Source: Ignavibacteria bacterium RIFOXYB12_FULL_35_14 (GTDB lineage: Bacteria > Bacteroidota > Ignavibacteria > Ignavibacteriales > Ignavibacteriaceae). Taken from it: 40,572 nucleotides of DNA. This document shows, in pieces, positions 2,641 to 33,289 of this stretch. The stretch spans positions 1-40,572 of the forward strand of contig MHAR01000013.1 in NCBI GenBank assembly GCA_001803045.1, given 5' to 3'. Position numbers and translations under genes: made by a program. How positions within the stretch are numbered: the first letter of the stretch is position 1; every line of letters begins with the position of its first letter. The notes beneath the pieces were generated by a model, which saw only the letters and a program-made list of their open reading frames with translations, searched no databases and had not been told where the DNA came from.

Positions 2641-3900
2641 ATGGCTTACAATACAGACGTAAGAAAAATTTATTCAGACCAGCTTGAAGAGTTAAAAGGT
2701 CTGGGCATCTTCAAGGAAGAACGGGCAATTTGTACTCCTCAGGATTCTGAAATCGAAGTTGAGTCTCCCATTGGCGCTGAGAAGAAAAGAGTTATTAATA
2801 TGTGCGCGAATAATTATCTCGGTCTTTCTTCTCATCCCGAAGTCGTTAAAGCTGCTCATGAGGGACTCGATGTTAGAGGTTATGGGATGTCTTCCGTCAG
2901 ATTTATTTGCGGAACACAAGACATTCACAAAGAGCTTGAAAAAAAGTTAACTGAGTTTTTAGGAACTGAAGACACAATTCTTTTTCCATCTTGTATGGAT
3001 GCAAATGCCGGTGTGTTTGAGGCAATCTTAACTGAACAAGATGTAATGATTGCCGACAGATTAGTCCACGCATCGATAATTGATGGAATGCGTTTGTGCA
3101 AAGCTCAGAATGATTCATATAAACATTCCGATATGGCACATCTTGAAGAGAAACTGCAGCTTCATCAATCCGCCACAGGCGGAAAAAGGATGAGAGTGAT
3201 AATCACCGATGGCGCATTTTCAATGGATGGTGATCTTGCTAAGATGGATAAAATAGTTGAGCTTGCTGAAAAATATAATGCGATGGTTTTTGTAGATGAT
3301 TCTCATGCGAGCGGTTATATCGGTAAAACAGGTCGAGGTTCTCACGAGCATTTTGGTGTCGTCGGAAAGATTGATATTATAACTACAACACTTGGGAAAG
3401 CACTTGGCGGCGCATCCGGCGGTTGTGTTTCCGGCAGAAAAGAAATCGTTGAAATGTGCAGACAAAAAGCTCGACCGTATCTATTCTCAAATACAGTTGC
3501 TCCGGTTATAGTTGAAGGTGCTTTGAGAGTCCTTGAAATAATTTCAAAATCAACTGCTCGCCGTGATAAGCTTGAAGAGAATACAAAATTCTGGAGAAAA
3601 GGATTGACTGAGGCAGGATTTATAATTAAAGAAGGTGAAACTGCGATTGTTCCAGTTATGCTTTTCAATGCAAAGCTTTCTCAAGATATCGCAAGAGATC
3701 TTTACGCCGAAGGAATTTATGCTGTTGGATTTTTCTTTCCAGTAGTTCCTAAAGGACAAGCAAGAATTAGAACACAATTATCTGCTGCTCATGAAATGCA
3801 TCATTTAGAAAAAGCTCTCGCTGCGTTTATTAAAGTAGGCAAGAAGTATGATATTCTTGGCAAGACGAAGCAAGAGATTATTGATAAGTACGGGATGTGA
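2641..3900 (+). CDS. 2-amino-3-ketobutyrate CoA ligase-type alpha-oxoamine synthase (paralogue 1)
   Basis: A PLP-dependent alpha-oxoamine synthase of 419 residues. Seen motifs: FVDDSHASGYIG (Asp and His of the PLP site), the Schiff-base Lys in TTLGKALGGASGG, and [13 protein letters not shown], all typical of glycine C-acetyltransferase/Kbl rather than serine palmitoyltransferase or BioF. Kbl condenses glycine and acetyl-CoA, or works in reverse with threonine dehydrogenase. The second copy (16360-17625) lies next to tdh, so this copy, which follows a carrier-protein gene by 9 bp, may have a different acyl donor, possibly acyl-ACP; that is inference. A surface loop carries SATGG, encoded by a short palindromic repeat (3169-3183). 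Confidence 0.85.
   Translation: MAYNTDVRKIYSDQLEELKGLGIFKEERAICTPQDSEIEVESPIGAEKKRVINMCANNYLGLSSHPEVVKAAHEGLDVRGYGMSSVRFICGTQDIHKELEKKLTEFLGTEDTILFPSCMDANAGVFEAILTEQDVMIADRLVHASIIDGMRLCKAQNDSYKHSDMAHLEEKLQLHQSATGGKRMRVIITDGAFSMDGDLAKMDKIVELAEKYNAMVFVDDSHASGYIGKTGRGSHEHFGVVGKIDIITTTLGKALGGASGGCVSGRKEIVEMCRQKARPYLFSNTVAPVIVEGALRVLEIISKSTARRDKLEENTKFWRKGLTEAGFIIKEGETAIVPVMLFNAKLSQDIARDLYAEGIYAVGFFFPVVPKGQARIRTQLSAAHEMHHLEKALAAFIKVGKKYDILGKTKQEIIDKYGM
3169..3183. repeat. In-frame short palindrome TCCGCC-ACA-GGCGGA in kbl paralogue 1
   Basis: A perfect 6-bp stem that encodes part of QSATGGK in a loop just before the conserved VIITDGAFSMDGD segment. It shares its arms with the element at 2605-2619. 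Confidence 0.7.
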
Positions 3901-11398: not shown

Positions 11399-11420
11399 AA
11401 CTGTGATAGTAGGAGATATT

Positions 11421-12938
11421 ATGAAAAAAGTTTTACAGATATTGCTTTTCTTTTTGTTTGTAACACAAATTTGTTTTGCTCAGTGGTATGAACAAACAAG
11501 CGGTACAAAAGTATCTCTAACCTCAGTTCATTTTGAAAATGCAAATAATGGTTGGACAGTTGGTGAAAATGGTACTATCATTCACACAACAAATGGAGGA
11601 CAAGAGTGGAGAACACAAACTAGCGGAACAAGCAAACATTTAAATGGAGTCTGGTTTTCTGACTTGAATACTGGCTGGATAGTCGGAGACAGTGGAAAAA
11701 TATTTAAAACAAGTAATGGTGGACAAGAATGGATAGAACAAACAAGCGGAACACGTATTGATTTAAATTCAGTTTGTTTCGTCGATTTAAAGAGAGGATG
11801 GGTTGTTGGCAGCGTAGATTATGATTCTGGAATAATTCTCGGAACCACTAATGGTGGAATAAATTGGATAAGTCAATCATACGATACACTTCAGCCCAGT
11901 CTAAATTCAGTTTGTTTTGTTGACAGCATTACGGGTTGGGTTTTTGGACTTCATGCCCTCCTTCGAACTACTGATGGAGGACACAACTGGTTTGGTGTAG
12001 GAGTTTATGGAGATGGTTTGTTTACAGGACATTTCCTTGATCAATATACCGGTTGGGTCTCGATATATGGTGCTGGCGTTGTGCATGGATTTATATTATA
12101 CACAACCAACGGTGGTATAGATTGGTCCTTTGGAGAAGGACCTCCTACTGCATCTTCAATTTATTTTGTTGATGCAAACAATGGTTGGGCAGTTGGTCAC
12201 CAGAGCATGGGTAATGAGTCTAACACTTATAATTCCATTGATGGAGGAAGGAATTGGATAGCACAAACACAAATTACTCTTGGAACTCTAAACTCAGTCT
12301 ATTTCACAGATATTAATAATGGCTGGGCAGTTGGTGAAGGCGGAGCTATATTGCACACAACAAATGGTGGTAATCCAGTTCCAGTCGAACTTACTTCATT
12401 CACGGCAACAGCTAATGGTAAAGAAGTTACTCTTAACTGGTCAACTGCAACAGAACTAAATAACCAAGGATTTGAAGTACAGAGAAAATTTTGCTCTAAT
12501 GAATTTGTAACAGTTGGCTCAGTTAAAGGACATGGCACAACTACGTCTCCAAACAATTACACTTATGTTGATAAACTCACTGATGCCGGAAAATATTTCT
12601 ATAGACTCAAGCAAATAGACTTCGGAGGTAGGTATGAGTACTCACAAACAGTAGAAATAAATTGGAGTCCGTTTACTTCATACGAGCTTAACCAGAACTT
12701 TCCAAATCCGCTAAACCCTTCCACGACAATAGGATTTGTAATAATGGAAAAAGGAAATGTAAGATTATCAGTTCTCAACATACTTGGTGAAGAAATAAAA
12801 GTTTTACTCAATGAAGAAAAAGAAGCTGGGTATCATTCCATAGATTTTAATGGAATTGATTTACCAAGCTCAGTTTACTTTTACCGAATACAAGCTGGAA
12901 ATTTTATTGATACGAAAAAAATGATACTTTTAAAATAA
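11421..12938 (+). CDS. Secreted YCF48/BNR-repeat propeller protein with T9SS sorting domain
   Basis: A predicted beta-propeller of 505 residues built from about seven YCF48-like blades (NGW.VG..G.I..T.NGG..W). The fold is shared with Ycf48/HCF136, but in this phylum such proteins are surface cargo of unknown function. I chose ATG 11421 over GTG 11403 because AGGAGA stands 5 bp before it and the product then starts with a standard signal peptide (MKKVLQILLFFLFVTQICFA). After the propeller comes a conserved block VPVELTSFTATANGKEVTLN (fibronectin-like, about 317-410) and then the sorting domain (YELNQNFPNPLNPSTTI...KKMILLK). It shares architecture with the next gene, so the pair probably arose by duplication. 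Confidence 0.85.
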   Translation: MKKVLQILLFFLFVTQICFAQWYEQTSGTKVSLTSVHFENANNGWTVGENGTIIHTTNGGQEWRTQTSGTSKHLNGVWFSDLNTGWIVGDSGKIFKTSNGGQEWIEQTSGTRIDLNSVCFVDLKRGWVVGSVDYDSGIILGTTNGGINWISQSYDTLQPSLNSVCFVDSITGWVFGLHALLRTTDGGHNWFGVGVYGDGLFTGHFLDQYTGWVSIYGAGVVHGFILYTTNGGIDWSFGEGPPTASSIYFVDANNGWAVGHQSMGNESNTYNSIDGGRNWIAQTQITLGTLNSVYFTDINNGWAVGEGGAILHTTNGGNPVPVELTSFTATANGKEVTLNWSTATELNNQGFEVQRKFCSNEFVTVGSVKGHGTTTSPNNYTYVDKLTDAGKYFYRLKQIDFGGRYEYSQTVEINWSPFTSYELNQNFPNPLNPSTTIGFVIMEKGNVRLSVLNILGEEIKVLLNEEKEAGYHSIDFNGIDLPSSVYFYRIQAGNFIDTKKMILLK

Positions 12939-13060: not shown

Positions 13061-15502
13061 ATGTTGAGTTCTACAAAATCCCGTAATGCGGGAAAATCCT
13101 TTCTACAAATTTTGTTTTTCTTTTTACTGATTACGCAAATAAGTTTTGCACAGTGGTACTGGCAGAATCCCAGACCAACAGGAAATACCTTAAAGTCTGT
13201 TCAATTCATTGACAGCAATGTTGGCTGGGCGGTAGGAGAAGCTGGAACCATCCTCAAAACTACAGATGCTGGAGCCAACTGGTCACAACAATCAAGTGGA
13301 ACAAGTGCCCCCCTTTCGAGTGTCTCTTTTACTGATGCAAATAACGGAACTGCTGTTGGCGGTGCGGCAGATTTATATAGCATTATAGTCAGAACCACCA
13401 ATGGTGGAACAACTTGGACTGAAAAATCAAGCGGAACAAGTAGTTCTCTTTATAGTGTATCCTTTACAGATGCAAATAACGGTTGGGTTGTTGGTTATGT
13501 AGGAACTATCCTCAGAACCACAAACGGCGGAGATACTTGGACGGAACAATTAAGCGGAATATTAAGTCATCTTTGTGGTGTATTTTTTAATGACGTAAAT
13601 AATGGTTGGGCAGTAGGCGAAAATGGGGTAATACTCCGAACAACAAATGGCGGTCAGATCTGGAATACTCAAACAAGTGGCGCAACCGGTTATCTTAATG
13701 GAATTTCATTTCTCGATTTAAATATTGGAACGACTGTTGGACAAGGTGGCACAATCCTAAGGACAACTAATGGAGGACAAAGCTGGTTTAGTCAAGCAAG
13801 CGGGACAACTAATGAGCTTACTGGAGTTTCTTTCACGGAAGTAAACAACGGAACGGTTGTTGGATTGGGTGGAACAATCCTTAGAACAACAAATGGTGGG
13901 CAAGACTGGATTACCAAATCAAGTGGTACAACTGAGTGGCTTTTTGGAACTTCATTTACTAACCCAAACAACGGAATTGCTGTTGGTATGGATGGAACAA
14001 TCCTAAGAACAACTGATGAAGGACAGAGCTGGTTTAATCAGACGGCCAGTGTAACGAATAAGTCTCTATGGGCTGTTACCTTCACAGATGCAAATAACGG
14101 TTGGTCTGTTGGTTATGAAGGAACTATCCTCAGAACCACAAACGGCGGAGATACTTGGACTGAACAATCAAGTGGAACAACATTGTTATTGAGAGAGGTT
14201 TGTTTTATTGATGTGAATAATGGATGGATTGTTGGCGGAGGTTGGAACGATACAACACAAATAATACTTGCCACCACAAACGGTGGAATAAACTGGGTTT
14301 CACAATCAAGCGGAACAACTAAATATCTTAATGGAGTTTTCTTTATCGACTTGAATAACGGAACAGCTGTCGGTGACAGTGGGATAATCTTAAGGACAAC
14401 TAATGGAGGGCAAAGCTGGTTTAGTCAATCAAGTGGAACAACTAACTGGCTCGGTGGAGTTTACTTTACTGATGCAAATATTGGGACAGTTGTTGGAACC
14501 GGCGGAACAATACTAAGAACATTAGATGGAGGACAGAACTGGGTTAGTCAGACAAGTGGAACAACTAATTGGCTCCTAGACGTTTACTTTACGGATGCAA
14601 ATATTGGAACGGTTGTAGGAGAAGGTGGAACAATCTTAAGAACAACTAACGGAGGACAGAACTGGGTCAGTCAAATAAGCGGAATTAGTACTTGGATTTA
14701 TGGCGTCTTTTTTACCGATGTAAATAACGGAACTGCTGTAGCCAGTTTTGCTATGCCTGATTATGGATTTATTCTAAGAACAACAAATGGAGGAGGGAAC
14801 TGGATACTTCAGTCAAGAGGAACCCACGACCTTTTTGGAGTTTTCTTTACGGATGCAAATAATGGCTGGGCGGTCGGAGGCTACGGCACCATTCTCCACA
14901 CAACTAACGGTGGTAACCCAGTTCCAGTTGAACTAAATTCATTCACAGCAACAGCAACTAACAAAGAAATTATTCTTAACTGGTCAACAGCAACGGAACT
15001 AAACAACCAAGGTTTTGAAGTACAAAGGAAAACTTTTGATGGTGAGTTTGCTACCGTTGCTTTTGTTAAAGGGCAAGGAACAACAACTCAACAAAACCAA
15101 TACAGCTTTACTGATAAAAATCTTGACGAAGGAAAATACTTCTATCGACTCAAACAAATGGATTATGGCGGACAGTATAGTTACTCACAGACAGTGGAAG
15201 TTGATGTGAGAATGTTAAACAATTACTCACTTGAACAGAACTTCCCAAATCCCTGGAACCCTGTAACGACAATAGGATATATACTTCGAGAAAAGAGCAA
15301 TACAAAACTCACTATAATTAATGCATTAGGAGAAGAGGTAGCAATCTTAGTGAATGAAGAACAAGATAAGGGATATCACAAAGTAGAGTTTGATGGATCG
15401 AGATTGGCGAGTGGAGTATATTTCTACAGAGTACAAGCGGTTCCTTCGTCAGGCTCAGGACAGGTTTTTGTTGAGACTAAGAAGATGATCCTCCTCCGTT
15501 AA
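13061..15502 (+). CDS. Large secreted YCF48/BNR-repeat protein with T9SS sorting domain
   Basis: A product of 813 residues with about fifteen YCF48-like blades (recurrent VGxxGTILRTTNGGxxW and FTDANNG) spanning about 30-610, enough for two propellers, then the same VPVELNSFTATATNKEIILN block as its neighbour and a C-terminal sorting domain (YSLEQNFPNPWNPVTTIGY...ETKKMILLR). GGAGG sits about 5 bp before ATG 13061. Compared with the sister protein the signal peptide has about nine extra N-terminal residues (SSTKSRNAG region), encoded by a palindrome at 13079-13093. The sorting domain has another extra block (VPSSGSGQV) from a repeat at 15443-15464. Both indels fall in tolerant positions. Confidence 0.86.
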   Translation: MLSSTKSRNAGKSFLQILFFFLLITQISFAQWYWQNPRPTGNTLKSVQFIDSNVGWAVGEAGTILKTTDAGANWSQQSSGTSAPLSSVSFTDANNGTAVGGAADLYSIIVRTTNGGTTWTEKSSGTSSSLYSVSFTDANNGWVVGYVGTILRTTNGGDTWTEQLSGILSHLCGVFFNDVNNGWAVGENGVILRTTNGGQIWNTQTSGATGYLNGISFLDLNIGTTVGQGGTILRTTNGGQSWFSQASGTTNELTGVSFTEVNNGTVVGLGGTILRTTNGGQDWITKSSGTTEWLFGTSFTNPNNGIAVGMDGTILRTTDEGQSWFNQTASVTNKSLWAVTFTDANNGWSVGYEGTILRTTNGGDTWTEQSSGTTLLLREVCFIDVNNGWIVGGGWNDTTQIILATTNGGINWVSQSSGTTKYLNGVFFIDLNNGTAVGDSGIILRTTNGGQSWFSQSSGTTNWLGGVYFTDANIGTVVGTGGTILRTLDGGQNWVSQTSGTTNWLLDVYFTDANIGTVVGEGGTILRTTNGGQNWVSQISGISTWIYGVFFTDVNNGTAVASFAMPDYGFILRTTNGGGNWILQSRGTHDLFGVFFTDANNGWAVGGYGTILHTTNGGNPVPVELNSFTATATNKEIILNWSTATELNNQGFEVQRKTFDGEFATVAFVKGQGTTTQQNQYSFTDKNLDEGKYFYRLKQMDYGGQYSYSQTVEVDVRMLNNYSLEQNFPNPWNPVTTIGYILREKSNTKLTIINALGEEVAILVNEEQDKGYHKVEFDGSRLASGVYFYRVQAVPSSGSGQVFVETKKMILLR
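13079..13093. repeat. Palindrome TCCCG-TAATG-CGGGA in the signal-peptide codons
   Basis: A perfect 5-bp stem lying 18-32 nt after the start codon, encoding SRNAG. The sister gene lacks this segment, so it looks like an in-frame insertion. A hairpin here could also affect initiation. Confidence 0.55.
15443..15464. repeat. In-frame repeat CCTTCGTCAGGCTCAGGACA in the sorting domain
   Basis: Encodes PSSGSGQ between VQA and FVETKKMILL, where the related proteins have only one to three residues. It resembles a common bacterial interspersed repeat of the CTTCGACAAGCTCAGGACAGG type. Confidence 0.55.
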
Positions 15503-16359: not shown

Positions 16360-17625
16360 ATGTACCGAAGAACTAAATACGATCTCAAGCAAGAGTTAAG
16401 TTCAATTAAAGAAGCGAATCTTTATAAAGAGGAAAGAATCATTCTCTCAGATCAGAAAGCTAAAATAAATGTTTCCTATCCGGCAGATTCAAAACCAAAA
16501 GAGGTGCTAAACTTTTGTTCGAATAATTATCTTGGGCTCGCTAATCATCCTATCATAATTGAAGCGGCAAAAAAAACTTTAGATTCCCACGGTTATGGTT
16601 TATCATCTGTAAGGTTTATCTGCGGAACTCAAGATATTCACAAGGAACTTGAAAAACGCATTGCTGCTTTCTATCAAACCGATGATTCTATACTTTATTC
16701 ATCTTGCTTTGATGCAAACGGCGGATTATTCGAAACCATTCTTGGGCAAGATGATATTATTATTACAGATCAACTAAATCATGCCAGCATAATTGACGGT
16801 ATAAGATTATGCAAAGCGAGAAGACTCATCTACGAGCATTCGGACATGAAATTGCTTGAGCAGAAATTAATTCTTGCGAGGGAAGGATCAGATATTTGGG
16901 AACATACCGGACTCGGCCAAGAACCACATCCTTCTAAAAATATTTTAATTGCAACCGATGGTGTCTTTTCAATGGATGGTGACATAGCAAAGTTAACCGA
17001 GATAGCACATCTTGCAAATAAATACGATGCCCTCGTAATGGTTGATGATTCTCATGCAACTGGATTTTTTGGTAAAACCGGTCGTGGTTCTCTTGAGTAT
17101 TGTAATGTTCTTGGTGAAATTGATATTATCACTTCAACTCTTGGTAAAGCAATGGGCGGTGCTTCAGGCGGTTTCACTGCATCTAAGAAAGAAATTGTTG
17201 ATATGTTAAGACAGCGTTCGAGACCATATCTATTTTCTAACACGTTAGCTCCTGTAATAGTTGGTGCTTCTATCGCCGCTTTCGATCTTCTTGAAAAATC
17301 AAATGATCTTCGCGAAAAGCTGATGAAAAATACCAAATACTTCAGAGAAAAAATGACTGCTCTCGGATTTGACATAATTGAAGGTATTCATCCTATTGTT
17401 CCAATTTTATTTAGAAAATTTGAGAATGATGCTCAGCTTGCTCAGCAAATGGCAAAAGATCTTTATAATGAAGGAATTTATGTCGTAGGATTTTCATATC
17501 CTGTCGTACCAAAAGGACAAGCTCGAATCAGAGTTCAGATTTCCGCCGCACACTCACAAGAAAATTTGGATGAATGCATTAAAGCATTTGAGAAGGTGGG
17601 AAAGAAGTTAAAAGTGATTAGCTGA
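16360..17625 (+). CDS. kbl: 2-amino-3-ketobutyrate CoA ligase (glycine C-acetyltransferase), paralogue 2
   Basis: A PLP enzyme of 421 residues that cleaves 2-amino-3-ketobutyrate with CoA to glycine and acetyl-CoA, the second step of threonine breakdown. Motifs seen: [18 protein letters not shown], the Schiff-base Lys in [31 protein letters not shown], and the C-terminal [14 protein letters not shown]. It converges with tdh, which makes its substrate, so this copy is the better candidate for the true Kbl. A loop before [15 protein letters not shown] carries about 17 extra residues ([17 protein letters not shown]) compared with what I recall of E. coli Kbl, at the same site where paralogue 1 carries a repeat-encoded insertion. 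The stop codon is the first base triplet of a 19-bp inverted repeat. Confidence 0.9.
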
Positions 17626-18116: not shown

Positions 18117-19151
18117 TCACTTCCAATCCAATATAACTTTACCCGTGTTACCCGACTTCATCAATTCAAATCCTTCTAGGTAATCATCAATTTTAAATTT
18201 GTGAGTTATCACAGGACTAATATCTAATCCCGCTTGTACCATTGCTTGCATTTTGTACCACGTTTCAAACATTTTTCTACCGTAAATTCCACGAATAGTG
18301 AGGCCGTTAAAGATTATCTTGTTCCAGTTCACGCCTGCATTCTCAGGAAGAATACCAAGCAGTGCAATATTTCCGCCGTGATACATAACTTCAATCATAT
18401 CATTAAATGCTTTAATACTTCCAGACATTTCCAATCCAACATCAAATCCGCCTCTCATTCCTAATTCTTTTACTACATCTGGGAGTTTTTCTTTTGTGAC
18501 ATCTACTGTTCGAGTTACTCCCATTTTTTTCGCAAGATCTAATCTATACTGGTTTATATCTGTAATTACGATGTTTCTTGCACCGGAATGTTTGGCAATT
18601 GCTGCCGCCATAATTCCAATCGGACCGGCTCCGGTTATCAAAACATCTTCACCCAATAGTTCAAAACTAAGAGCAGTATGAGTTGCATTTCCAAATGGAT
18701 CATAAATGGATAAAACATCTTTAGAAATTTTAGGATCACAGTGCCAAATGTTGGTTACTGGAATAACTAAATATTCGGCAAAGCAGCCGGGACGATTAAC
18801 TCCAACGCCTTTAGTGTTAGGACAAAGATGACCTCTGCCGGCACGGCAATGCCTGCACTGGCCGCAAACGAGATGTCCTTCACCGCTGACTAATTCACCA
18901 ACTTGAACATCGTGCACGTTGCTGCCGAATGCCTCGACAGTTCCCACATACTCATGACCAACATGCATTGGGACAGGAATTGTTTTTTGAGCCCACTCAT
19001 CCCAGTTGTAAATGTGAATGTCGGTTCCGCATATGGATGTCTTGTCAATTTTAATCAGCACATCATTTTGTCCAAATTCCGGCTTATCTACTTCATCCAT
19101 CCATATTCCTGGTTTAGCATATTTTTTTACAAGAGCTTTCATTTTAGGCAT
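18117..19151 (-). CDS. tdh: L-threonine 3-dehydrogenase
   Basis: A zinc- and NAD-dependent medium-chain dehydrogenase of 344 residues that oxidises threonine to 2-amino-3-ketobutyrate. Seen: catalytic-zinc motifs [16 protein letters not shown] and HVGHEYVG, a structural-zinc Cys cluster [15 protein letters not shown], and the Rossmann glycine motif [13 protein letters not shown]. The threonine-specific WDEWAQ segment separates it from generic alcohol or sorbitol dehydrogenases. It works with Kbl, encoded opposite and convergent. Length matches E. coli Tdh closely. Confidence 0.93.
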
Positions 19152-19984: not shown

Positions 19985-21376
19985 ATGGATTTTAGAATGG
20001 AGTCTGACAGCATGGGTTCAATTAAAGTTCCCACAGATAAATATTATGGCGCTCAAACTGCAAGGTCCTTGATGAACTTTAAAATCGGTGGTGAAAGATT
20101 TCCTGCAGAATTAATTCGTGCGTTGGCAATTGTAAAAAAAGCTGCAGCATTGACAAATCTTGAACTCGGAACTCTCACTAAAGAAAAATGCGATTTGATT
20201 TTACAAGCTGCAGAAGAGGTAATCGAAGGAAAGCTTAACGATCATTTTCCATTGGTTGTTTGGCAGACCGGTAGCGGCACTCAAACCAACATGAACGCTA
20301 ACGAAGTGATCTCTAACCGTGCAATCGAGATTTCCGGCGGAGTGATGGGAAGTAAAAAACCAATTCACCCGAATGATGATGTTAACAAAGCACAGTCAAC
20401 TAATGATGCTTTCCCAACATCGATTCATGTGGCCGCAGTTGAGGAAATTCACAGAAGACTAATTCCCATGGTTACTAGACTCCATGATGCGCTTGATGAA
20501 AAAGCTAACGCTTTTAAGAGTATCATCAAAATTGGCAGAACTCATTTGATGGATGCTACTCCGTTAACACTTGGGCAGGAATTCTCCGGTTATGCTCATC
20601 AATTAACTCGTGGATTAGAAAGAATTGATGACAGCTTAAAACGGCTTTATGAAATTCCTCTTGGTGGAACAGCAGTCGGTACCGGATTAAATACTCATCC
20701 AGAATATGCGGTTAAAGTTGCAGCTAAAATTTCAGAGTTAACAGGAAAACCATTTAGAACTGCCGATAATAAATTTGAAGCAATGGCTGGAAAAGATGCT
20801 CTCGTTGAAATGCACGGTATTCTAAAAACTCTTGCCGTATCACTAATAAAAATTTCAAATGATATTCGCTGGCTTGGTTCAGGACCGAGATGCGGAATAG
20901 GTGAAATTAGCTTGCCTGAGAATGAGCCGGGAAGTTCAATAATGCCCGGAAAAGTAAATCCAACTCAATCCGAAGCGATGACAATGGTTTGTGCTCAAGT
21001 ATTTGGAAATGATGTCACAGTAAACTTTGCAGGAGCGAGCGGAAACTTTGAGCTGAACGTTTTTATGCCTGTAATTGCTTTCAATGTTTTGCAATCAATA
21101 AAATTGCTAGCAGATGCTTGCGAAAGTTTTACAGACAATTGCGTAGTCGGAATCGAAGCCAACGAAGCAAACATTAAAAAGCATCTTGAAAATTCTTTAA
21201 TGCTTGTTACTTCGCTTAATCCTGTGATTGGTTATGACAATGCAGCAAAGGTTGCAAAGAAAGCTCACAAAGAAAATAAAACTTTGAAAGAAGCCGCTAT
21301 CGAGTTGGGCTTGCTAACCTCAGAAAAATTTGATGAAGTTGTTCGTCCTGAGAAGATGATAGGACCTAAAGCTTGA
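19985..21376 (+). CDS. fumC: Fumarate hydratase, class II
   Basis: Interconverts fumarate and malate in the TCA cycle; an oxygen-stable, iron-free tetramer in this class. The protein has 463 residues, matching FumC. Motifs: [34 protein letters not shown] (active-site His/Asn region), [20 protein letters not shown], and the superfamily signature [13 protein letters not shown] with the catalytic-loop Ser. The start follows AGGGAGAATTAAC. Aspartase is the nearest alternative, but the THLMDATP and GLNTHPEYA segments favour fumarase. Confidence 0.93.
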
Positions 21377-25025: not shown

Positions 25026-25562
25026 ATGTCAGCTAAATCGGAAAGAAAACGTATTGTTTTCATCGGTAGAAAAAATGTAGGTAAGTCTTCTCTTATCAAT
25101 GCATTCTTCGGTCAAGATGTATGCGTCGTTAATGAAGAAGCTGGAACCACAACAGCACTTTTGGAAAAAGTGATGGATCTTCCACCTTATGGGCATGTTA
25201 TTCTTGTTGATACTTTCGGCATTGATTACACTCGTGAACTTGGACCAACTAAATTGAAGAAAACAATCGAAGCAATTTCCTCGGCAGATTTTGTGGTTGT
25301 TGTACTTGATGCACGAGAGAAGTTATCAGCTGACGAAAAAAATATTTTCCATTATGTAAAAAAATCAACAATTCCTTTTGTTGCTGCAGTAAATAGAATT
25401 GAGTATGGAATAAATTCCGAACTTATTAATGGATTAAGAGCTTTGAACATAGTTCACTTCGAAATTTCCTGCAAAGAAAATGTTGGAATTGATGCTTTGA
25501 AATCACGCATTACAAGACTTCTTCCAAAGGAAGTAATTGGAAGCAGTTCACCACCAAACTAA
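25026..25562 (+). CDS. HydF-like GTPase, GTPase domain only
   Basis: A Ras-like GTPase of 178 residues matching the N-terminal domain of [FeFe]-hydrogenase maturase HydF. G1 is GRKNVGKSS, G2 GTTT, G3 DTFG, G4 NRIE (canonical NKxD) and G5 SCKE. Full HydF has about 400 residues with a dimerisation domain and a Cys/His [4Fe-4S] domain that carries the diiron precursor. Here the protein ends right after the GTPase fold, and the 228 bp that follow hold no continuation in any frame I read. It lies directly upstream of the hydrogenase genes on the same strand, which supports a maturation-related or regulatory role. HydE and HydG are not in the window. It may also be an Era/EngA-type GTPase that merely resembles HydF. 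Confidence 0.7.
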   Translation: MSAKSERKRIVFIGRKNVGKSSLINAFFGQDVCVVNEEAGTTTALLEKVMDLPPYGHVILVDTFGIDYTRELGPTKLKKTIEAISSADFVVVVLDAREKLSADEKNIFHYVKKSTIPFVAAVNRIEYGINSELINGLRALNIVHFEISCKENVGIDALKSRITRLLPKEVIGSSSPPN

Positions 25563-25608
25563 TCCATCATAAATTTTAACTTAGTAAATCCGTGTAAAAT
25601 ATCTCCTT

Positions 25609-25623
25609 AAATGCCGGGCATTT
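25609..25623. terminator. Small hairpin AAATGC-CGG-GCATTT after the GTPase gene
   Basis: A perfect 6-bp stem 47 bp after the stop. Only a mixed T/C stretch follows, so termination would be weak. It may attenuate transcription between the GTPase and the hydrogenase subunits. Confidence 0.35.
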
Positions 25624-25790
25624 CTGCTTCTCTTTATTTTCTATTTTTGACAAAAATAATTTTTCAAAAGTAAGAAAAAGATTCCATTTTCTTGCGGAAA
25701 TTGATAAAATTTTAACTTAAGCTTAGCTTTTCACAAACTATCTATGGCATTCGATATGAGATAGATTAAGCGAAATAATTTGAGGAAAGA

Positions 25791-26177
25791 ATGCATAACG
25801 ATATTTTTGAGAATTATACACCAAATGATAAAGGTTCACGTATTCCATCGCTTCAAGATGTTCAATCAACCTACAGTTACTTACCCGAACTTGCCTTACG
25901 GAATATCGCTGAATTCATAGGTATTACATTACGCAGAGTTTTGGGTTTCGCTACTTTTTATAATCAGTTTAGATTTGCTCCAATTGGAAAAAATGTAATT
26001 AGAATTTGCAGAGGGAAGGCTTGCCATGTTGAGAATTCATCAAACTTATTGTTTGTGCTTAAAACTGCTTCTGTCACTAAACCCGGGGGAACAACTCGAG
26101 ATAAAAACTTCACGCTTGAACCTGTTGCATGTATCGAAGCGTGTAGTATCACACCGGTAATAACAATCACTCACTAA
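25791..26177 (+). CDS. Short NuoE/HydC-like [2Fe-2S] subunit
   Basis: A thioredoxin-like [2Fe-2S] protein of 128 residues similar to NuoE. LQDVQSTYSYLPELALRNIA and FATFYNQFRFAPIGKNVI are typical. The four cluster cysteines appear as CRGKAC and ACIEAC. It stops at ITPVITITH, about 25 residues before the usual end (the segment with YGxLTPEK), and the loop between the Cys pairs is altered. A full-length homologue follows two genes later. This short form may be a regulatory or electron-entry variant, or one in decay. Confidence 0.8.
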   Translation: MHNDIFENYTPNDKGSRIPSLQDVQSTYSYLPELALRNIAEFIGITLRRVLGFATFYNQFRFAPIGKNVIRICRGKACHVENSSNLLFVLKTASVTKPGGTTRDKNFTLEPVACIEACSITPVITITH

Positions 26178-26192
26178 CTAAAGGGACCCATT

Positions 26193-26579
26193 ATGGCAAA
26201 AATAGCAATCATAGATGATGATCCCGATATCCTTGATGCAAGTACTCTCGTACTAAATGCGAAAGGATATGAGACCGTTACAGCATCAAATCCTGACGAC
26301 GGATACAAGATCGTTAAAGAATATTCTCCGGATCTTATCATACTTGATGTAATGATGAATGAGCCGGATGATGGATTTTTCCTTGCTCAAAAATTTAGAA
26401 GGGAAAAAATCAAAACTCCAATAATAATGTATACATCAATTTCAAAAACCACGGGAATGGATTTTGGAAAGAGCGATCTGGTTCCTGTAGATGAATATGT
26501 AGAGAAACCCATTTCTCCCGATGAACTAATTGAGAAAGTTGAAAGACTTCTCAAAAGAGAAATGGAGGAGAACAAGTAA
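26193..26579 (+). CDS. CheY-like response regulator in the hydrogenase operon
   Basis: A single receiver domain of 128 residues: acidic pocket IIDDDPD, phospho-acceptor Asp in LIILDVMM, Thr/Ser in IIMYTS and Lys in VEKPIS. No output domain. It begins 16 bp after the short NuoE-like gene and ends 1 bp before the full NuoE-like gene (TAATATG), so it is part of the operon. It most likely relays or senses a signal for hydrogenase activity through protein contact rather than DNA binding; that is inference. Confidence 0.88.
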   Translation: MAKIAIIDDDPDILDASTLVLNAKGYETVTASNPDDGYKIVKEYSPDLIILDVMMNEPDDGFFLAQKFRREKIKTPIIMYTSISKTTGMDFGKSDLVPVDEYVEKPISPDELIEKVERLLKREMEENK

Positions 26580-26580
26580 T

Positions 26581-27054
26581 ATGTTAGTTGAAGAAAAAAA
26601 TGCTCTTACCGAAGAAATTGAACTTATGATCAAAAAGTTAGGTAAAAAAAGATCGGCATTGTTATCAATTCTACATGGGATTCAAATGAAACATAGGCAC
26701 GTCTCAGAATATGCACAGCAGGAAATTGCACGCTTGCTAGATATTCATCCAGTTGAAGTTTTCAGTGTGCTTTCCTTTTATGCTTTTCTTAATGCAACTC
26801 CAAAGGGAAGAAATCTTGTTAGAATTTGTCGAACCATTAGCTGCGATATGAAAGGAAAGGACATTATTGTGAGAGCAATTGAGCGCGAATTAAATATGAA
26901 GATTGGTCATACAACAAGCGATAACAAATTCACAGTTGAATATGTTAATTGTCTCGGTTTATGTGATGAGGGTCCGGCTATGGCAATAAATGATCAAGTC
27001 TTTACAAAGCTCACTCCTGAGAAAGCAGTAAAATTATTAAGTAAGGTTAAGTGA
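26581..27054 (+). CDS. NuoE/HydC-like [2Fe-2S] subunit of NAD-linked hydrogenase
   Basis: A protein of 157 residues from ATG 26581, chosen because GGAGGAG lies just upstream and an earlier start would overlap the response regulator. NuoE features: VSEYAQQEIARLLDIHPVEV, SFYAFLNATPKGRNLVRIC, cluster cysteines CRTISC and CLGLC, and the complete C-terminal FTKLTPEKAVKLL. It passes electrons between the NuoF-like flavoprotein and the hydrogenase subunit. Tight spacing on both sides. Confidence 0.88.
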   Translation: MLVEEKNALTEEIELMIKKLGKKRSALLSILHGIQMKHRHVSEYAQQEIARLLDIHPVEVFSVLSFYAFLNATPKGRNLVRICRTISCDMKGKDIIVRAIERELNMKIGHTTSDNKFTVEYVNCLGLCDEGPAMAINDQVFTKLTPEKAVKLLSKVK

Positions 27055-27055
27055 A

Positions 27056-28270
27056 GTGAATATGGAAACAAAAACAAAGAAGAGAACCGGTCCAGTTATC
27101 TTTTCGGGTTATGAAAGAGGAACTGCAATTGAGAAAGCTCTTAACATTAACAGAGAGGATATTCTGCTTGAGATCAGAGAATCAAAACTTAGAGGAAGAG
27201 GTGGTGCTGGTTTCCCAACATCAACTAAATGGATGCTGACTGCCGCCGCTTTGAGCGATGAGAAATTCATTATTTGTAATGCCGACGAAGGCGAACCGGG
27301 AACATTTAAAGATCGAGTTCTTCTAATTGAGTATCCCGAACTTGTTTTCGACGGAATGGTTATCGCTGCACACACAATTGGTGCGCAGAAAGGTATAATT
27401 TATTTAAGAGGCGAATATGAGTATCTGCTTAAGCCGCTTCAAGAGTATCTTGAAGGAATGCGAAAGGATAATTTTCTAGGTAAGGACATTCTTGGCAAGA
27501 AGGGATTTTATTTCGACATTACGGTTTTCTTAGGTTCAGGCGCTTATGTTTGCGGTGAAGAGACAGCACTAATCGAATCTTTAGAAGGACAACGAGGAGA
27601 AGCCAGAAACAGACCTCCATATCCTGTAAATACAGGATACATGGGAAAACCTACAATTGTTAATAATGTCGAAACACTTGCATCAATTCCGCACATTATC
27701 ATAAAAGGATCCGAATGGTATAAAAAACTTGGAACAGGAAAATCCTCAGGTTCAAAACTTTTCTCTGTTTCTGGCGATTGTGATAAACCTGGAGTTTATG
27801 AACTGCCCTGGGGTACAAAAATAAGTGAGCTTCTTGAATTGGTTAGTGCGAAAAATACCAAAGCCGTCCAGGTAGGCGGTGCATCAGGATTCTGCTACAA
27901 TAAAACTCAGTTTGATAAAGCACTTGCTTATGAAGATGCCGCCACCGGCGGTTCTATTATGATATTTAATGAAAGCCGCGATATGCTTAGAGTGCTTAAT
28001 AATTTTATGGAATTCTTTGTTGATGAATCCTGCGGACAATGCACACCATGCCGTATTGGTAATGTGAAGCTCCTTGAAGGAGTAAAGATGATTCAAAAAG
28101 GTGATTATACTTTTGCTTACATCAATAAGTTAAAGGAATTAGGAAAATCAATGCAGGTAGCATCCAAATGTGGATTAGGTCAGTCGAGTCCAAATGCATT
28201 TCTTTCAATCCTAGAGAATTTTAATGAAGAAATATTTAACCGGGAAAATGGGGGTACCAATGAAAACTAA
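27056..28270 (+). CDS. NuoF/HydB-like NADH-binding flavoprotein subunit
   Basis: Binds NAD(H), FMN and a [4Fe-4S] cluster. It has 404 residues counted from GTG 27056; ATG 27062 is equally possible. Motifs: GRGGAGFPTSTKW (NADH), CNADEGEPGTFKDR, GAYVCGEETALIESLEG (FMN), and ESCGQCTPCRIG plus a later CGLG Cys (cluster). It lacks the N-terminal thioredoxin-like and C-terminal ferredoxin extensions found in HydB of Thermotoga-type enzymes, so the electron wiring is simpler. It overlaps or abuts its neighbours, consistent with one transcript. Confidence 0.9.
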   Translation: MNMETKTKKRTGPVIFSGYERGTAIEKALNINREDILLEIRESKLRGRGGAGFPTSTKWMLTAAALSDEKFIICNADEGEPGTFKDRVLLIEYPELVFDGMVIAAHTIGAQKGIIYLRGEYEYLLKPLQEYLEGMRKDNFLGKDILGKKGFYFDITVFLGSGAYVCGEETALIESLEGQRGEARNRPPYPVNTGYMGKPTIVNNVETLASIPHIIIKGSEWYKKLGTGKSSGSKLFSVSGDCDKPGVYELPWGTKISELLELVSAKNTKAVQVGGASGFCYNKTQFDKALAYEDAATGGSIMIFNESRDMLRVLNNFMEFFVDESCGQCTPCRIGNVKLLEGVKMIQKGDYTFAYINKLKELGKSMQVASKCGLGQSSPNAFLSILENFNEEIFNRENGGTNEN

Positions 28271-30176
28271 AGAAATTTCCCGTGCCCCTGTTAGCCAACA
28301 AGCACATGTGATTCAAAAACCTGAGCATCCGGAATACATTGGCGGCTCAATAACAGTTGAAATAAATGAAAAGAAGGTTTCCGTACCGTTGGGTACAACA
28401 ATTTTGGAAGCGTGCAGGCAAAATCAAGTTTATGTTCCGACCTTATGTCATCATGATGATTTATGCGTTGCAGGTGTTTGCAGAATTTGTGTTGTTGATG
28501 TTGAAGGAATGAGAACACTTCAAGCTGCTTGTGCTTTTCCAATTACAGCTCCAATAAAAATTAGAACATCAACTCCAATGGTTCGTAAAGCAAGAAAGCA
28601 CATCATTGATTTATTGCTAAGCGAGCATTATGGTGAATGTTATTCCTGTTTCAGAAATAATAATTGCGAACTTCAAGCCCTCGCAAAAGAATATGGTGTT
28701 GATCATTACAATTTTGGTCACGTTGAAAAACAACGCTATGAAATAGACAGCTCATCTTATTCCGTTGTTCGTGATATGGATAAATGTATCTTATGCAAAA
28801 GATGTGTGCGAACATGTATTGATTTGCAGGAAGTTGGTGTGCTCGAAGCAATTGATAGAGGATATAAAACTCACATCGGTACGTTCGGTGATAAACCCTT
28901 AGCCGAGGTTATTTGCATTAATTGCGGTCAATGTATAAATCGCTGTCCAACCGGTGCATTAAGAGCTAACGATCCGCGTGATGAAATCTGGGAAGCAATT
29001 GATAATCCTCAAAAGCATGTTGTTGTTCAAACAGCTCCATCGCCGAGAGCTGCAATCGGTGAGGAATTTGGGATTGAACCCGGACATTCCTTTACTGGTG
29101 AGATGAATACAGCGTTAAGAAGAATTGGCTTTGATAGAGTATTCGACACGAACTTTACTGCTGATCTAACAATTATGGAAGAAGGAACTGAATTACTGAT
29201 CAGATTATACAAAGCACTTGTTAAGAAAGATACTTCTGTAGTAATTCCTCAGTTCACTTCATGCTCACCGGGCTGGGTAAAATATCTCGAACATTTTTAT
29301 CCGGAGTTTATTCCAAATCTTAGTTCAGCAAAATCACCTCAGCAAATGTTTGGTGCATTGATAAAAACTTACTATGCAAAAAAACATAATATTGATCCCT
29401 CTAACATAGTTAGCGTTGCAGTTATGCCTTGCTCTGCAAAAAAATTTGAATGCAATAGACCTGAAATGACTTCATCGGGATTTAAAGATGTTGATTACGG
29501 CTTAACAACGCGTGAACTTGCACAAATGATAAAAGAAGCCGGCATTTATTTACCGGAAATGCCAAAGTCACACTTTGATGATCCGTTTGGTGATGCTTCA
29601 GGTGCGGGATTAATTTTCGGTGCAACCGGCGGCGTAATGGAAGCTGCGCTCAGAACCGTGATTGAATTAGTTACCGGAGAGAAAGTTGAAAATGTGTTTG
29701 ATAACATGAATATAATGCCTGTCAGAGGCTTCGAAGGAATTAAATACGCCGAGCTTCCAATTACTAAAGTTGGACCTATACCCAAATTGTTAGTACACGT
29801 AGTTCCTAATTGGGATTGGCTGAAAGGTGCTACACTTAAAATTGCTGTTGCTCATGGAACGGCGAATGCGAAAAGGGTAATGGATAGTATTAAAGCTGGA
29901 GGTAAATTCAGTTTATGTCATTTCATTGAATTCATGGCTTGTCCTGGCGGTTGTATTGGCGGCGGTGGTCAGCCGATTCCAACAAGCGCCGAGATAAGAA
30001 GGAAAAGAGCGCAAGCAATTTATGCGGAAGATGCTGCACTCGATGTACGAAAATCTCATGAGAACACTCACGTATTAAAGTTGTATGAAGAATTTTTGAC
30101 TTATGGTCCTTGCGGACACACAGCCCATAAATTACTCCATACTCATTATACAAAGAGAGGAAAATTTATTTCTTAG
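28260..30176 (+). CDS. [FeFe]-hydrogenase catalytic subunit, NAD(P)-linked multi-cluster type
   Basis: Catalyses H2 production or uptake. With ATG 28260 (GGGGG upstream) the product has 638 residues. Domains: [2Fe-2S] plant-type (about 40-95, CHHDDLCVAGVCRIC), His-Cys3 [4Fe-4S] (about 113-142), two [4Fe-4S] motifs (CILCKRCVRTC and CINCGQCINRCP, about 174-232), the H-cluster domain (about 250-565) and a small-subunit-like tail (KSHENTHVLKLYEEFL). H-cluster motifs: L1 is TSCSPGW (Cys335, Ser336), L2 MPCSAKKFE (Cys391), L3 EFMACPGGCIGGGGQP (Cys561, Cys565). Together with NuoE- and NuoF-like subunits this is the plan of HydABC/Hnd enzymes, which may bifurcate electrons between NADH and ferredoxin. 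The overlapping upstream start at 28224 is less likely. Confidence 0.92.
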   Translation: MKTKEISRAPVSQQAHVIQKPEHPEYIGGSITVEINEKKVSVPLGTTILEACRQNQVYVPTLCHHDDLCVAGVCRICVVDVEGMRTLQAACAFPITAPIKIRTSTPMVRKARKHIIDLLLSEHYGECYSCFRNNNCELQALAKEYGVDHYNFGHVEKQRYEIDSSSYSVVRDMDKCILCKRCVRTCIDLQEVGVLEAIDRGYKTHIGTFGDKPLAEVICINCGQCINRCPTGALRANDPRDEIWEAIDNPQKHVVVQTAPSPRAAIGEEFGIEPGHSFTGEMNTALRRIGFDRVFDTNFTADLTIMEEGTELLIRLYKALVKKDTSVVIPQFTSCSPGWVKYLEHFYPEFIPNLSSAKSPQQMFGALIKTYYAKKHNIDPSNIVSVAVMPCSAKKFECNRPEMTSSGFKDVDYGLTTRELAQMIKEAGIYLPEMPKSHFDDPFGDASGAGLIFGATGGVMEAALRTVIELVTGEKVENVFDNMNIMPVRGFEGIKYAELPITKVGPIPKLLVHVVPNWDWLKGATLKIAVAHGTANAKRVMDSIKAGGKFSLCHFIEFMACPGGCIGGGGQPIPTSAEIRRKRAQAIYAEDAALDVRKSHENTHVLKLYEEFLTYGPCGHTAHKLLHTHYTKRGKFIS

Positions 30177-31888: not shown

Positions 31889-33289
31889 ATGATTAGATTA
31901 GTTCCTTATTGGGCAAGTCAGTACGAAGCATTTTGGGATGCCATAAGAAAACGCAACATGTGGTTCATTAAGCTTCGTTATGGAGCAGTGCTTATGCTTA
32001 CAACTTTAATTTTGGCATCCGAATTTTTCCTTGGGTTTAAATTCACAGAAACACAGACTATTGCAATAGCTGTAATAACTTTATCAATCTTAATTTATAA
32101 CTCACTTTTACATGTCGGCAAGAAACATATAAAATCAATTGCCGAACAATTTAATCCACTGCATTTATCACTTATTCAAATCATATTGGATTTTAGCTCG
32201 CTGTTTTTACTTTTTCATTTTACCGGAGGAATAGAGACGCCGCTCTATATGCTTTTCGTATTTCATATGATAATTGGAAGTTTAGTACTTCCAGGATCAA
32301 TAATTTATACAGTTGGAACTATTGTCGTCCTAGCTTTTGGCGGAATCGTATTTTTAGAATATTATCACATCATTCCTCACTATACTATTCAAGGTTTTTT
32401 AAATACACAATTATATGATGATTTTAATTATGTAGTTTCAATCTTCACAATTTTTGGATTTACAATGTTCATTAGCATTTATCTTACCAATGGAATTGCC
32501 CGTCAGCTGTACAGAATGGAACAGGATTTAATTGAATCGCTGGATAGGCTTAATACAGCCGAAATTGAAAAACAGAAATACATAGTTGGAGTTGTTCATG
32601 AAATAAAAACACCATTAACCGCAGTTCATTCATATTTAAATCTTATTCTTCAAAAGTTCCTTGGGCCGTTAGATAAAAAAGTAGAGGAGAGACTGATCAG
32701 AGCAAGTGTAAGATCTAAAGAGGCAATCAACTTGATAAATGATGTTATAAAAATTTCTCGATTTAAACTGTTCGATCATTTTGTTAAAGAGGAATTACAA
32801 ATCGAAGAAGTGATGAATGAACTATCCAACAAGCATTTAGTAAATGCAGAAACCAAAAAGATAAAGTTGGTTTTTAATGATAACAGAAAAACACATACAA
32901 AACTTATGGGCGATAAATTTCTTTTAACCCTTGCAATCTCAAATCTAGTTGGAAACGCAATAAAATATGTTGACAAAAAAGGGTTGATTGAAGTAAATCT
33001 GACAGATGAGGAGAAAGATATAGTTATTACAATTTGCGATAATGGAATCGGTATTCCTGAGCATGAGCAAGGAAAAATTTTTAAGGAGTTCTTTAGATCC
33101 TCAAACATCAGTAAAGAAAACCACGAGGGTGCTGGAATCGGGTTATCAATCGTAAAAGAAATTATAGAAAAGCATGAAGGAAGTATCTCCGTTGAAAGTC
33201 CTTCTATGTTGGCAAGCAAAAATAGACCAGGCACATGCTTTAAAATTCAATTACCTAAACCGAAAATTAATCAACAAACCAGCAAGTAG
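31889..33289 (+). CDS. Membrane sensor histidine kinase
   Basis: A protein of 466 residues with about six hydrophobic helices in the first 215 residues and no large periplasmic loop, then a short coiled linker, a HisKA domain with His237 in VVHEIKTPLTAVHSYL, and a HATPase with DNGIGIPEHE and GAGIGLSIVKEIIEKHEG. Its signal is probably membrane-borne or intramembrane. No response regulator is adjacent; the single-domain regulator at 26193 is the nearest candidate partner on the same strand, which is only a guess. Confidence 0.9.
   Translation: MIRLVPYWASQYEAFWDAIRKRNMWFIKLRYGAVLMLTTLILASEFFLGFKFTETQTIAIAVITLSILIYNSLLHVGKKHIKSIAEQFNPLHLSLIQIILDFSSLFLLFHFTGGIETPLYMLFVFHMIIGSLVLPGSIIYTVGTIVVLAFGGIVFLEYYHIIPHYTIQGFLNTQLYDDFNYVVSIFTIFGFTMFISIYLTNGIARQLYRMEQDLIESLDRLNTAEIEKQKYIVGVVHEIKTPLTAVHSYLNLILQKFLGPLDKKVEERLIRASVRSKEAINLINDVIKISRFKLFDHFVKEELQIEEVMNELSNKHLVNAETKKIKLVFNDNRKTHTKLMGDKFLLTLAISNLVGNAIKYVDKKGLIEVNLTDEEKDIVITICDNGIGIPEHEQGKIFKEFFRSSNISKENHEGAGIGLSIVKEIIEKHEGSISVESPSMLASKNRPGTCFKIQLPKPKINQQTSK

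Follow-up and report, generated by a model that had tools for sequence, protein, structure and literature searches.

According to the available text of PMC6212873, an active [FeFe]-hydrogenase requires all three maturases, HydE, HydF and HydG, and the histidines of the CxH and HCxxC motifs of HydF are not cluster ligands and yet are essential for [2Fe] assembly. The accessible sections of PMC7450098 report that the FeS domain of HydF alone binds and releases or delivers [2Fe], and that the GTPase function of HydF matters when it meets HydE and HydG. A laboratory-made isolated GTPase domain of HydF folds and responds to GTP by itself, as described in the accessible parts of PMC5431965 and PMC6212873, while the available text of PMC11437800 gives the maturases as absent from the diplomonads S. 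barkhanus, G. intestinalis and G. muris. We describe here a gene that matches the laboratory piece of HydF. It lies in the window, the 40,572-nucleotide stretch of DNA analysed, which is the entire contig C13 of Ignavibacteria bacterium RIFOXYB12_FULL_35_14 (4.10 Mb in 95 contigs; estimated completeness 100%, contamination 0.24%). Unlike the construct, this is a natural inherited gene, and one of its two natural copies has lost switch motifs. With the HydF maturase (TIGR03918; 5kh0, 5lad, 3qq5) it shares an orthologous G domain, a P-loop with the K+-type Asn and a place in the operon upstream of hydrogenase genes, but it has 178 residues instead of about 400, no dimerisation or [4Fe-4S] domain, and no HydE or HydG in its genome.

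The short gene occupies 25026..25562 on the forward strand, to which its motifs, the gap after it and the genes from nuoE' to the PilS-like kinase below also belong, and encodes 178 amino acids plus a stop codon, comprising a complete G domain without the dimerisation or [4Fe-4S] domain. Its best NCBIfam profile is TIGR03918 (HydF, E 9.9e-40; residues 3-170 against positions 3-171 of the 392 in the model), ahead of Der/EngA (E 7e-26) and Era (E 2e-21); the score of 136.6 bits does not reach the curated full-length cut-off of 325.55, as expected because one domain alone is present. The best sequence matches in the PDB are the HydF structures 5kh0, 5lad and 3qq5. A tree was built from 27 HydF G domains together with five further GTPases encoded by the window's genome, which we take from their sequences to be Der, MnmE, Era and EngB. 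The protein falls within the HydF clade (support 98/99), where its sister (support 100/99) is a second short form, from G079, which besides the window's genome alone represents the genus in the sample. The first-pass annotation had described a single-domain HydF-like GTPase adjoining [FeFe]-hydrogenase genes, and the open reading frame, profile, tree and gene order bear it out; an Era/EngA-type GTPase, the identity that would have spoken against it, is ruled out by the lead of the HydF profile and by the tree, in which the five other GTPases lie outside the HydF clade. An AlphaFold2 model has a complete G fold of six strands and five helices (mean pLDDT 82.0, pTM 0.80), with which Foldseek returned generic GTPases and did not single out HydF. 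Judged by profile, tree and gene order, the short gene is a HydF orthologue that ends directly past the GTPase domain.

The G motifs of the protein are the P-loop GRKNVGKSS (G1, 25065..25091), AGTTT (G2, switch I, 25140..25154), DTFG (G3, 25209..25220) and NRIE (G4, 25392..25403). In G079 the corresponding residues are HAEVR at G2, DTIP at G3 (DTAG or DTSG in full-length relatives) and NKIE at G4, as in most relatives. NRIE in place of NKxD had been pointed out as unusual; 40 full-length relatives carry NKIE, NKVE, NKSE or NKxD, so the motif is near the local norm and the change from K to R is all that sets this copy apart. The motifs for GTP binding and hydrolysis are thus present in the window's protein and partly lost in that of G079, where the threonines of switch I and the glycine of G3, both kept in the former, are gone, and nucleotide switching is therefore doubtful. 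Identity between the two short forms is also unevenly spread (18/24 in the P-loop half and 60/83 in residues 87-169, compared with 6/20 and 7/26 in the switch regions), which together with the motif loss in G079 suggests a domain that is constrained, though not in both species any more as an ordinary GTPase switch.

Downstream, the two C-terminal domains of HydF are absent from a gap at 25563..25790 that, from about 25638 onward, is the leader of the next gene, nuoE', with similarity to G079, G023 and G018. A lax tblastn search that used the C-termini of 17 full HydF proteins as queries returned 207 matches (best E 0.003), the best of them elsewhere in the window or in the neighbour locus; downstream of the gene only its own last codons were matched. 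Stop codons abound in all three forward frames across the gap, none of which restores the HydF C-terminus. Across the whole genome, neither HydF_tetramer (PF18133, the C-terminal [4Fe-4S] domain with CxH...HCxxC) at E<=1 nor HydF_dimer (PF18128, the central dimerisation domain) at E<=0.1 was found, and as a control the HydF_dimer search succeeded in 5/5 genomes with full HydF. The tblastn search, the frame check and the domain searches agree with the earlier statement that no trace of the C-terminal domains remains. A frameshift or pseudogene tail is ruled out, since no frame restores the remainder and there is no C-terminal remnant; the assembled sequence holds no frameshift of the kind that had been considered as a way to recover these domains. 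Promoter and terminator scans returned no more than in shuffled sequence.

The gene lies 228 bp upstream of nuoE' (25791..26177), whose product, a [2Fe-2S] thioredoxin-like subunit, is shortened to 128 aa from the 164 aa that it has in G018 and G079; a group A [FeFe]-hydrogenase gene follows 2.7 kb downstream of the short gene. Directly after nuoE' come a single-domain response regulator (26193..26579), NuoE-like (26581..27054) and NuoF-like (FMN/NADH; 27056..28270) subunits of the hydrogenase complex, and the catalytic subunit HydA650 (28224..30176), of the NF040763 group A6-type; the PilS-like membrane histidine kinase at 31889..33289 is one that relatives also conserve 3' of this hydrogenase gene. 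G018 has hydE-hydG, followed by aspA-like lyase-hydF-nuoE'-nuoF661-hydA585-(H domain plus histidine kinase)-RR-HK-RR-nuoE-nuoF-hydA650-PilS-like kinase, and G079 has the same series from the short gene onward. About 7.9 kb of G079 (nuoF661, hydA585, the hydrogenase-like sensor kinase, RR and HK) is absent from the window after nuoE', at 25791-26193, and the [FeFe] genes of this block are nowhere else in the genome. That sensor kinase (694 aa; L082 11212-13296 and equivalents), which adjoins hydA585, combines an H domain, Fe-S domains and a histidine kinase, and has GPC..KK.E in place of the usual second motif. Elsewhere in the window, 13061-15502 and 11403-12938 encode secreted-looking proteins with many GWAVGxxGTILRTTNGG-like repeats and a C-terminal sorting-type end, and 2641-3900 and 16360-17625 encode two similar proteins of 419-421 aa that resemble glycine C-acetyltransferase, near a threonine dehydrogenase-like gene (18117-19151). 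A link between aspA and hydF is described in the available text of PMC11736057; an aspA-like gene adjoins hydF in 5/7 loci with HydE and HydG and in 0/18 loci without them, a count that leaves out G023 and includes less than 1.3 kb of upstream sequence for each of G079 and G063. The class II fumarase of the window (19985-21376) is 41% identical to the aspA-like gene and is not adjacent to the short gene.

A search of the window's genome for the maturases found no full HydF above the cut-off and neither HydG nor HydE at E<=0.001, its one [FeFe]-hydrogenase domain gene being that of the window; in G079 there was no HydG at E<=0.001 and no HydE at 1e-40. The first-pass annotation had proposed that the short protein regulates maturation or works with a full HydF elsewhere. 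Its location within the hydrogenase operon fits such a part, but there is no maturation enzyme to regulate, and the genome, 100% complete by estimate, lacks full HydF, HydF_tetramer and HydF_dimer alike. With no other HydF, HydE or HydG found, the short protein is hardly a maturation regulator or a helper of full HydF, and we give either role almost no credence. Since the dimerisation and [4Fe-4S] domains of HydF and the partner enzymes are absent, it cannot be a diiron scaffold or carrier either: it keeps the part whose known partners are lost without the part that delivers, so that, provided the assembly is correct, the short protein cannot act in maturation as the known mechanism has it. 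HydE, HydG and the remainder of HydF might exist and have been missed in assembly or binning, and indeed nearly all genomes are drafts, the G023 contig stops inside aspA, where relatives continue with hydG and hydE, and in G079 only 0.6 kb of contig precedes the short gene. This is nevertheless very improbable, as the window's gene is interior to its contig and followed by a gap without remnant, the short form is common to two species, HydE and HydG are likewise missing from G035, G043 and G044, each a single contig, and HydG at E<=0.001 was absent from 11/11 such genomes and found in 2/2 positive controls (at this threshold HydE was searched in the window's genome alone).

A search of 164 genomes, taken to represent the order Ignavibacteriales, found a relative of the short protein in 81, an [FeFe] H domain in 133, HydG in 67 (66 above cut-off) and HydE in 82 (79 above cut-off). 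In a cross-table compiled by hand, the 133 hydrogenase-bearing genomes divide into 58 with HydE, HydF and HydG, 37 with none, 18 with HydF only (including both short forms and the unsafe G023), 12 with HydE only, six with HydE and HydG, one with HydE and HydF and one with HydF and HydG. Neither HydE nor HydG was thus found in 55/133 (G023 unsafe), among them the three single-contig genomes G035, G043 and G044, and at a completeness of at least 95% both were missing from 25 of 76 hydrogenase-bearing genomes. The 12 genomes with HydE but neither HydG nor HydF include G125, G132, G139, G140 (a single contig), G142, G161 and G163. Four other short-looking hydF frames were explained otherwise: in G112 and G095 a full HydF is split by a frameshift, and in G118 and G148 the open frames run into the contig end, so only the two genomes of the genus, g1, qualify. 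In G112 and G095 hydF lies in two overlapping frames (L166 3113-4311 and L168 849-2073), possibly through a sequencing frameshift. In a phylum sample of 395 genomes, 37 had a match to the HydF model at E<=1e-30 among the matches listed, two of them at about 1e-31 and probably other GTPases; the window's genome had the sole open frame below 400 aa, G079 being absent from the matches listed. No relative of the short protein was found in the viral contigs searched. A limited literature search, which is weak evidence, found no published report of a natural single-domain HydF or of bacterial loss of HydE and HydG with a conserved hydrogenase.

Full HydF proteins that survive without HydE and HydG were compared with those that do not stand alone. 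The ratio of GTPase to HydA585 distance has a median of 2.97 in 78 pairs without HydE and HydG and 1.44 in 10 pairs with both; in the clearest case (G047 and G049 against G046, G048 and G050) HydA differs by 4-6% and the G domain by 30-36%. All 16 full HydF proteins without HydE and HydG (L083-L100, L169-L180) retain the three cluster cysteines, which are three of just 12 positions kept in all 16 among the 75 that are invariant in other HydF (chance 0.003). The CxH histidine is lost in 10/16 and the HCxxC histidine in 3/16, whereas 23/23 HydF proteins with HydE and HydG keep both. Corrected for relatedness, the association of HydE/HydG loss with histidine loss comes down to four independent pairs, two or three in the same direction and none against, and is not significant (sign test, median P 0.25). 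The histidine is kept without HydE and HydG in 6/16 (G040-G044 and G150), and in the close pairs among G040, G043 and G044 HydF is not faster (ratios 1.36-1.49); these histidine-keepers and slow pairs speak against a uniform rule.

The two short proteins, both of 178 aa, are 57-59% identical, compared with 92% for HydA650 of the same pair. Past both stops the DNA soon aligns with the nuoE' leader of other genera, at a junction that is apparently identical in the two genomes, and this shared resumption of similarity makes one shared deletion the simplest reading of the alignment. Between the two genes p_N is 0.29 and p_S 0.66 (Fisher P 2.5e-13) with synonymous sites near saturation, and NG86 dN/dS is about 0.23 for the short gene and 0.025 for HydA650. 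When substitutions alone were simulated, 10/5000 runs kept the frame open with all 196 differences and 116/5000 with half. By these comparisons, the short frame is under weakened purifying selection, which acts on the hydrogenase about nine times more strongly; if the truncations were independent and recent, that selection would belong to the former full-length gene.

The reading that we prefer, at a probability of about 0.5, is that the gene is a hydF after an in-place deletion, whose left-over nucleotide-binding domain has at most a residual, non-maturation role at the hydrogenase complex. The dimerisation and [4Fe-4S] domains would have been deleted in place in the ancestor of the genus, in a lineage that has also lost HydE and HydG; across the order, the loss of HydE and HydG probably preceded that of parts of HydF, and the whole of HydF would have gone last. 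The remnant is a folded nucleotide-binding domain still in the hydrogenase operon and under purifying selection, and may act as a nucleotide-binding protein docking on subunits of the NAD-linked hydrogenase complex. An operon-specific switch, as the first-pass annotation had also suggested, is conceivable on the strength of weak purifying selection and gene order. We count against a residual role that dN/dS of the short gene is raised relative to the hydrogenase, with dS near saturation, and the many relatives without any HydF (37/133 lack HydF, HydE and HydG) imply that no HydF role is essential to such complexes. Although a residual role is the most likely reading, a functionless relic is nearly as likely: HydF would decay at leisure once HydE and HydG are lost, and the short frame would persist by chance until it goes, as in other genera. 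HydF without HydE and HydG does evolve faster than the adjoining hydrogenase (the short pair has a ratio of 5.21 on HydA650), the G079 motifs have decayed, and the complete absence of HydF from 37/133 hydrogenase-bearing genomes is what such decay would leave. A relic accounts less well for a frame that is open, with constrained amino acids, in both species at a saturated synonymous distance, and for a protein that is cut where a domain ends and whose fold is predicted in full.

The hydrogenase beside the short gene is well conserved. HydA650 scores 814.1 bits against the NF040763 cut-off of 765, and its H-cluster motifs L1-L3 (TSCSPGW, MPCSAKKFE and EFMACPGGC) are intact; a complete H-cluster and H2 turnover are putative. 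Its best solved match is the HydABC-type bifurcating hydrogenase 7q4v (E 5.5e-182), presumably from Acetobacterium woodii, which shares the TSCSPGW variant with serine at the place of the CpI C300 ligand and differs from the window's HydA in having been made in the presence of HydEFG. We compared 69 A585-type and 38 A650-type catalytic subunits, taking from the matches listed a single one of each type for any genome, at 14 positions of H-cluster ligands, [2Fe] pocket and proton path, placed from the alignment of HydA with its PDB match and with roles that we take from CpI. In A585, 14/14 positions are unvaried in the 46 genomes without HydG and the 23 with it; in A650, 13/14 are unvaried, the variable one being the C300 position (Ser in 36/38, Cys in 2/38). 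Since 128/341 H-domain columns are invariant in the 46 A585 proteins without HydG, the conservation of these sites is not merely general conservation. Median NG86 dN/dS of A585 is 0.038 without HydE, HydF and HydG, 0.029 with HydF only and 0.040 with all three (pairs chosen by hand, 3/19 saturated), which points to constraint that is alike with and without maturases. On a quick A585 tree, 13 genomes without the three maturases group together (SH-aLRT 98), and there are at least 10 changes in HydG status, counted without G023.

As H-cluster and proton-path residues are kept under undiminished constraint, something may still fill the site, and the short G protein might take part in completing or controlling the H-cluster independently of HydE and HydG. 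We think this very unlikely, as 22 sampled genomes without HydE, HydF and HydG keep the same residues, so that HydF in any form is not needed, and the [2Fe]-carrying domain is missing from the short form. A broader proposal, unlikely but less so, is that the NAD-linked [FeFe]-hydrogenases of this order work without HydE and HydG, and often without HydF, through either a new diiron route or an H domain that is useful without diiron. HydF, freed in this way, would be kept for a while as a GTPase and Fe-S partner that loses the [2Fe] histidine and keeps the cysteines, with the window's form as a late stage. The available text of PMC3534657 reports H2 made with such hydrogenases in Melioribacter roseus; G129, probably that species, carries HydE, HydF and HydG, so this is no instance of activity without maturases.

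The protist [FeFe]-hydrogenases that lack maturases are reportedly active. The diplomonad case resembles the present one in that the hydrogenase is kept and HydE, HydF and HydG are absent (available text of PMC11437800), but those are eukaryotes, and here the hosts are bacteria with multisubunit NAD-linked complexes in which HydF appears to be decaying stepwise. Either another diiron route would operate, as must be supposed for the maturase-free diplomonads of the available text of PMC11437800, or the H domain would be useful without diiron. With free-living bacteria that carry fully selected hydrogenases without HydE and HydG, the question posed by Giardia-type protists becomes testable in bacteria, and the single-domain HydF and the HydF-only genomes serve as natural separation-of-function variants, from which it can be told what HydF still has to keep when [2Fe] assembly has been lost.
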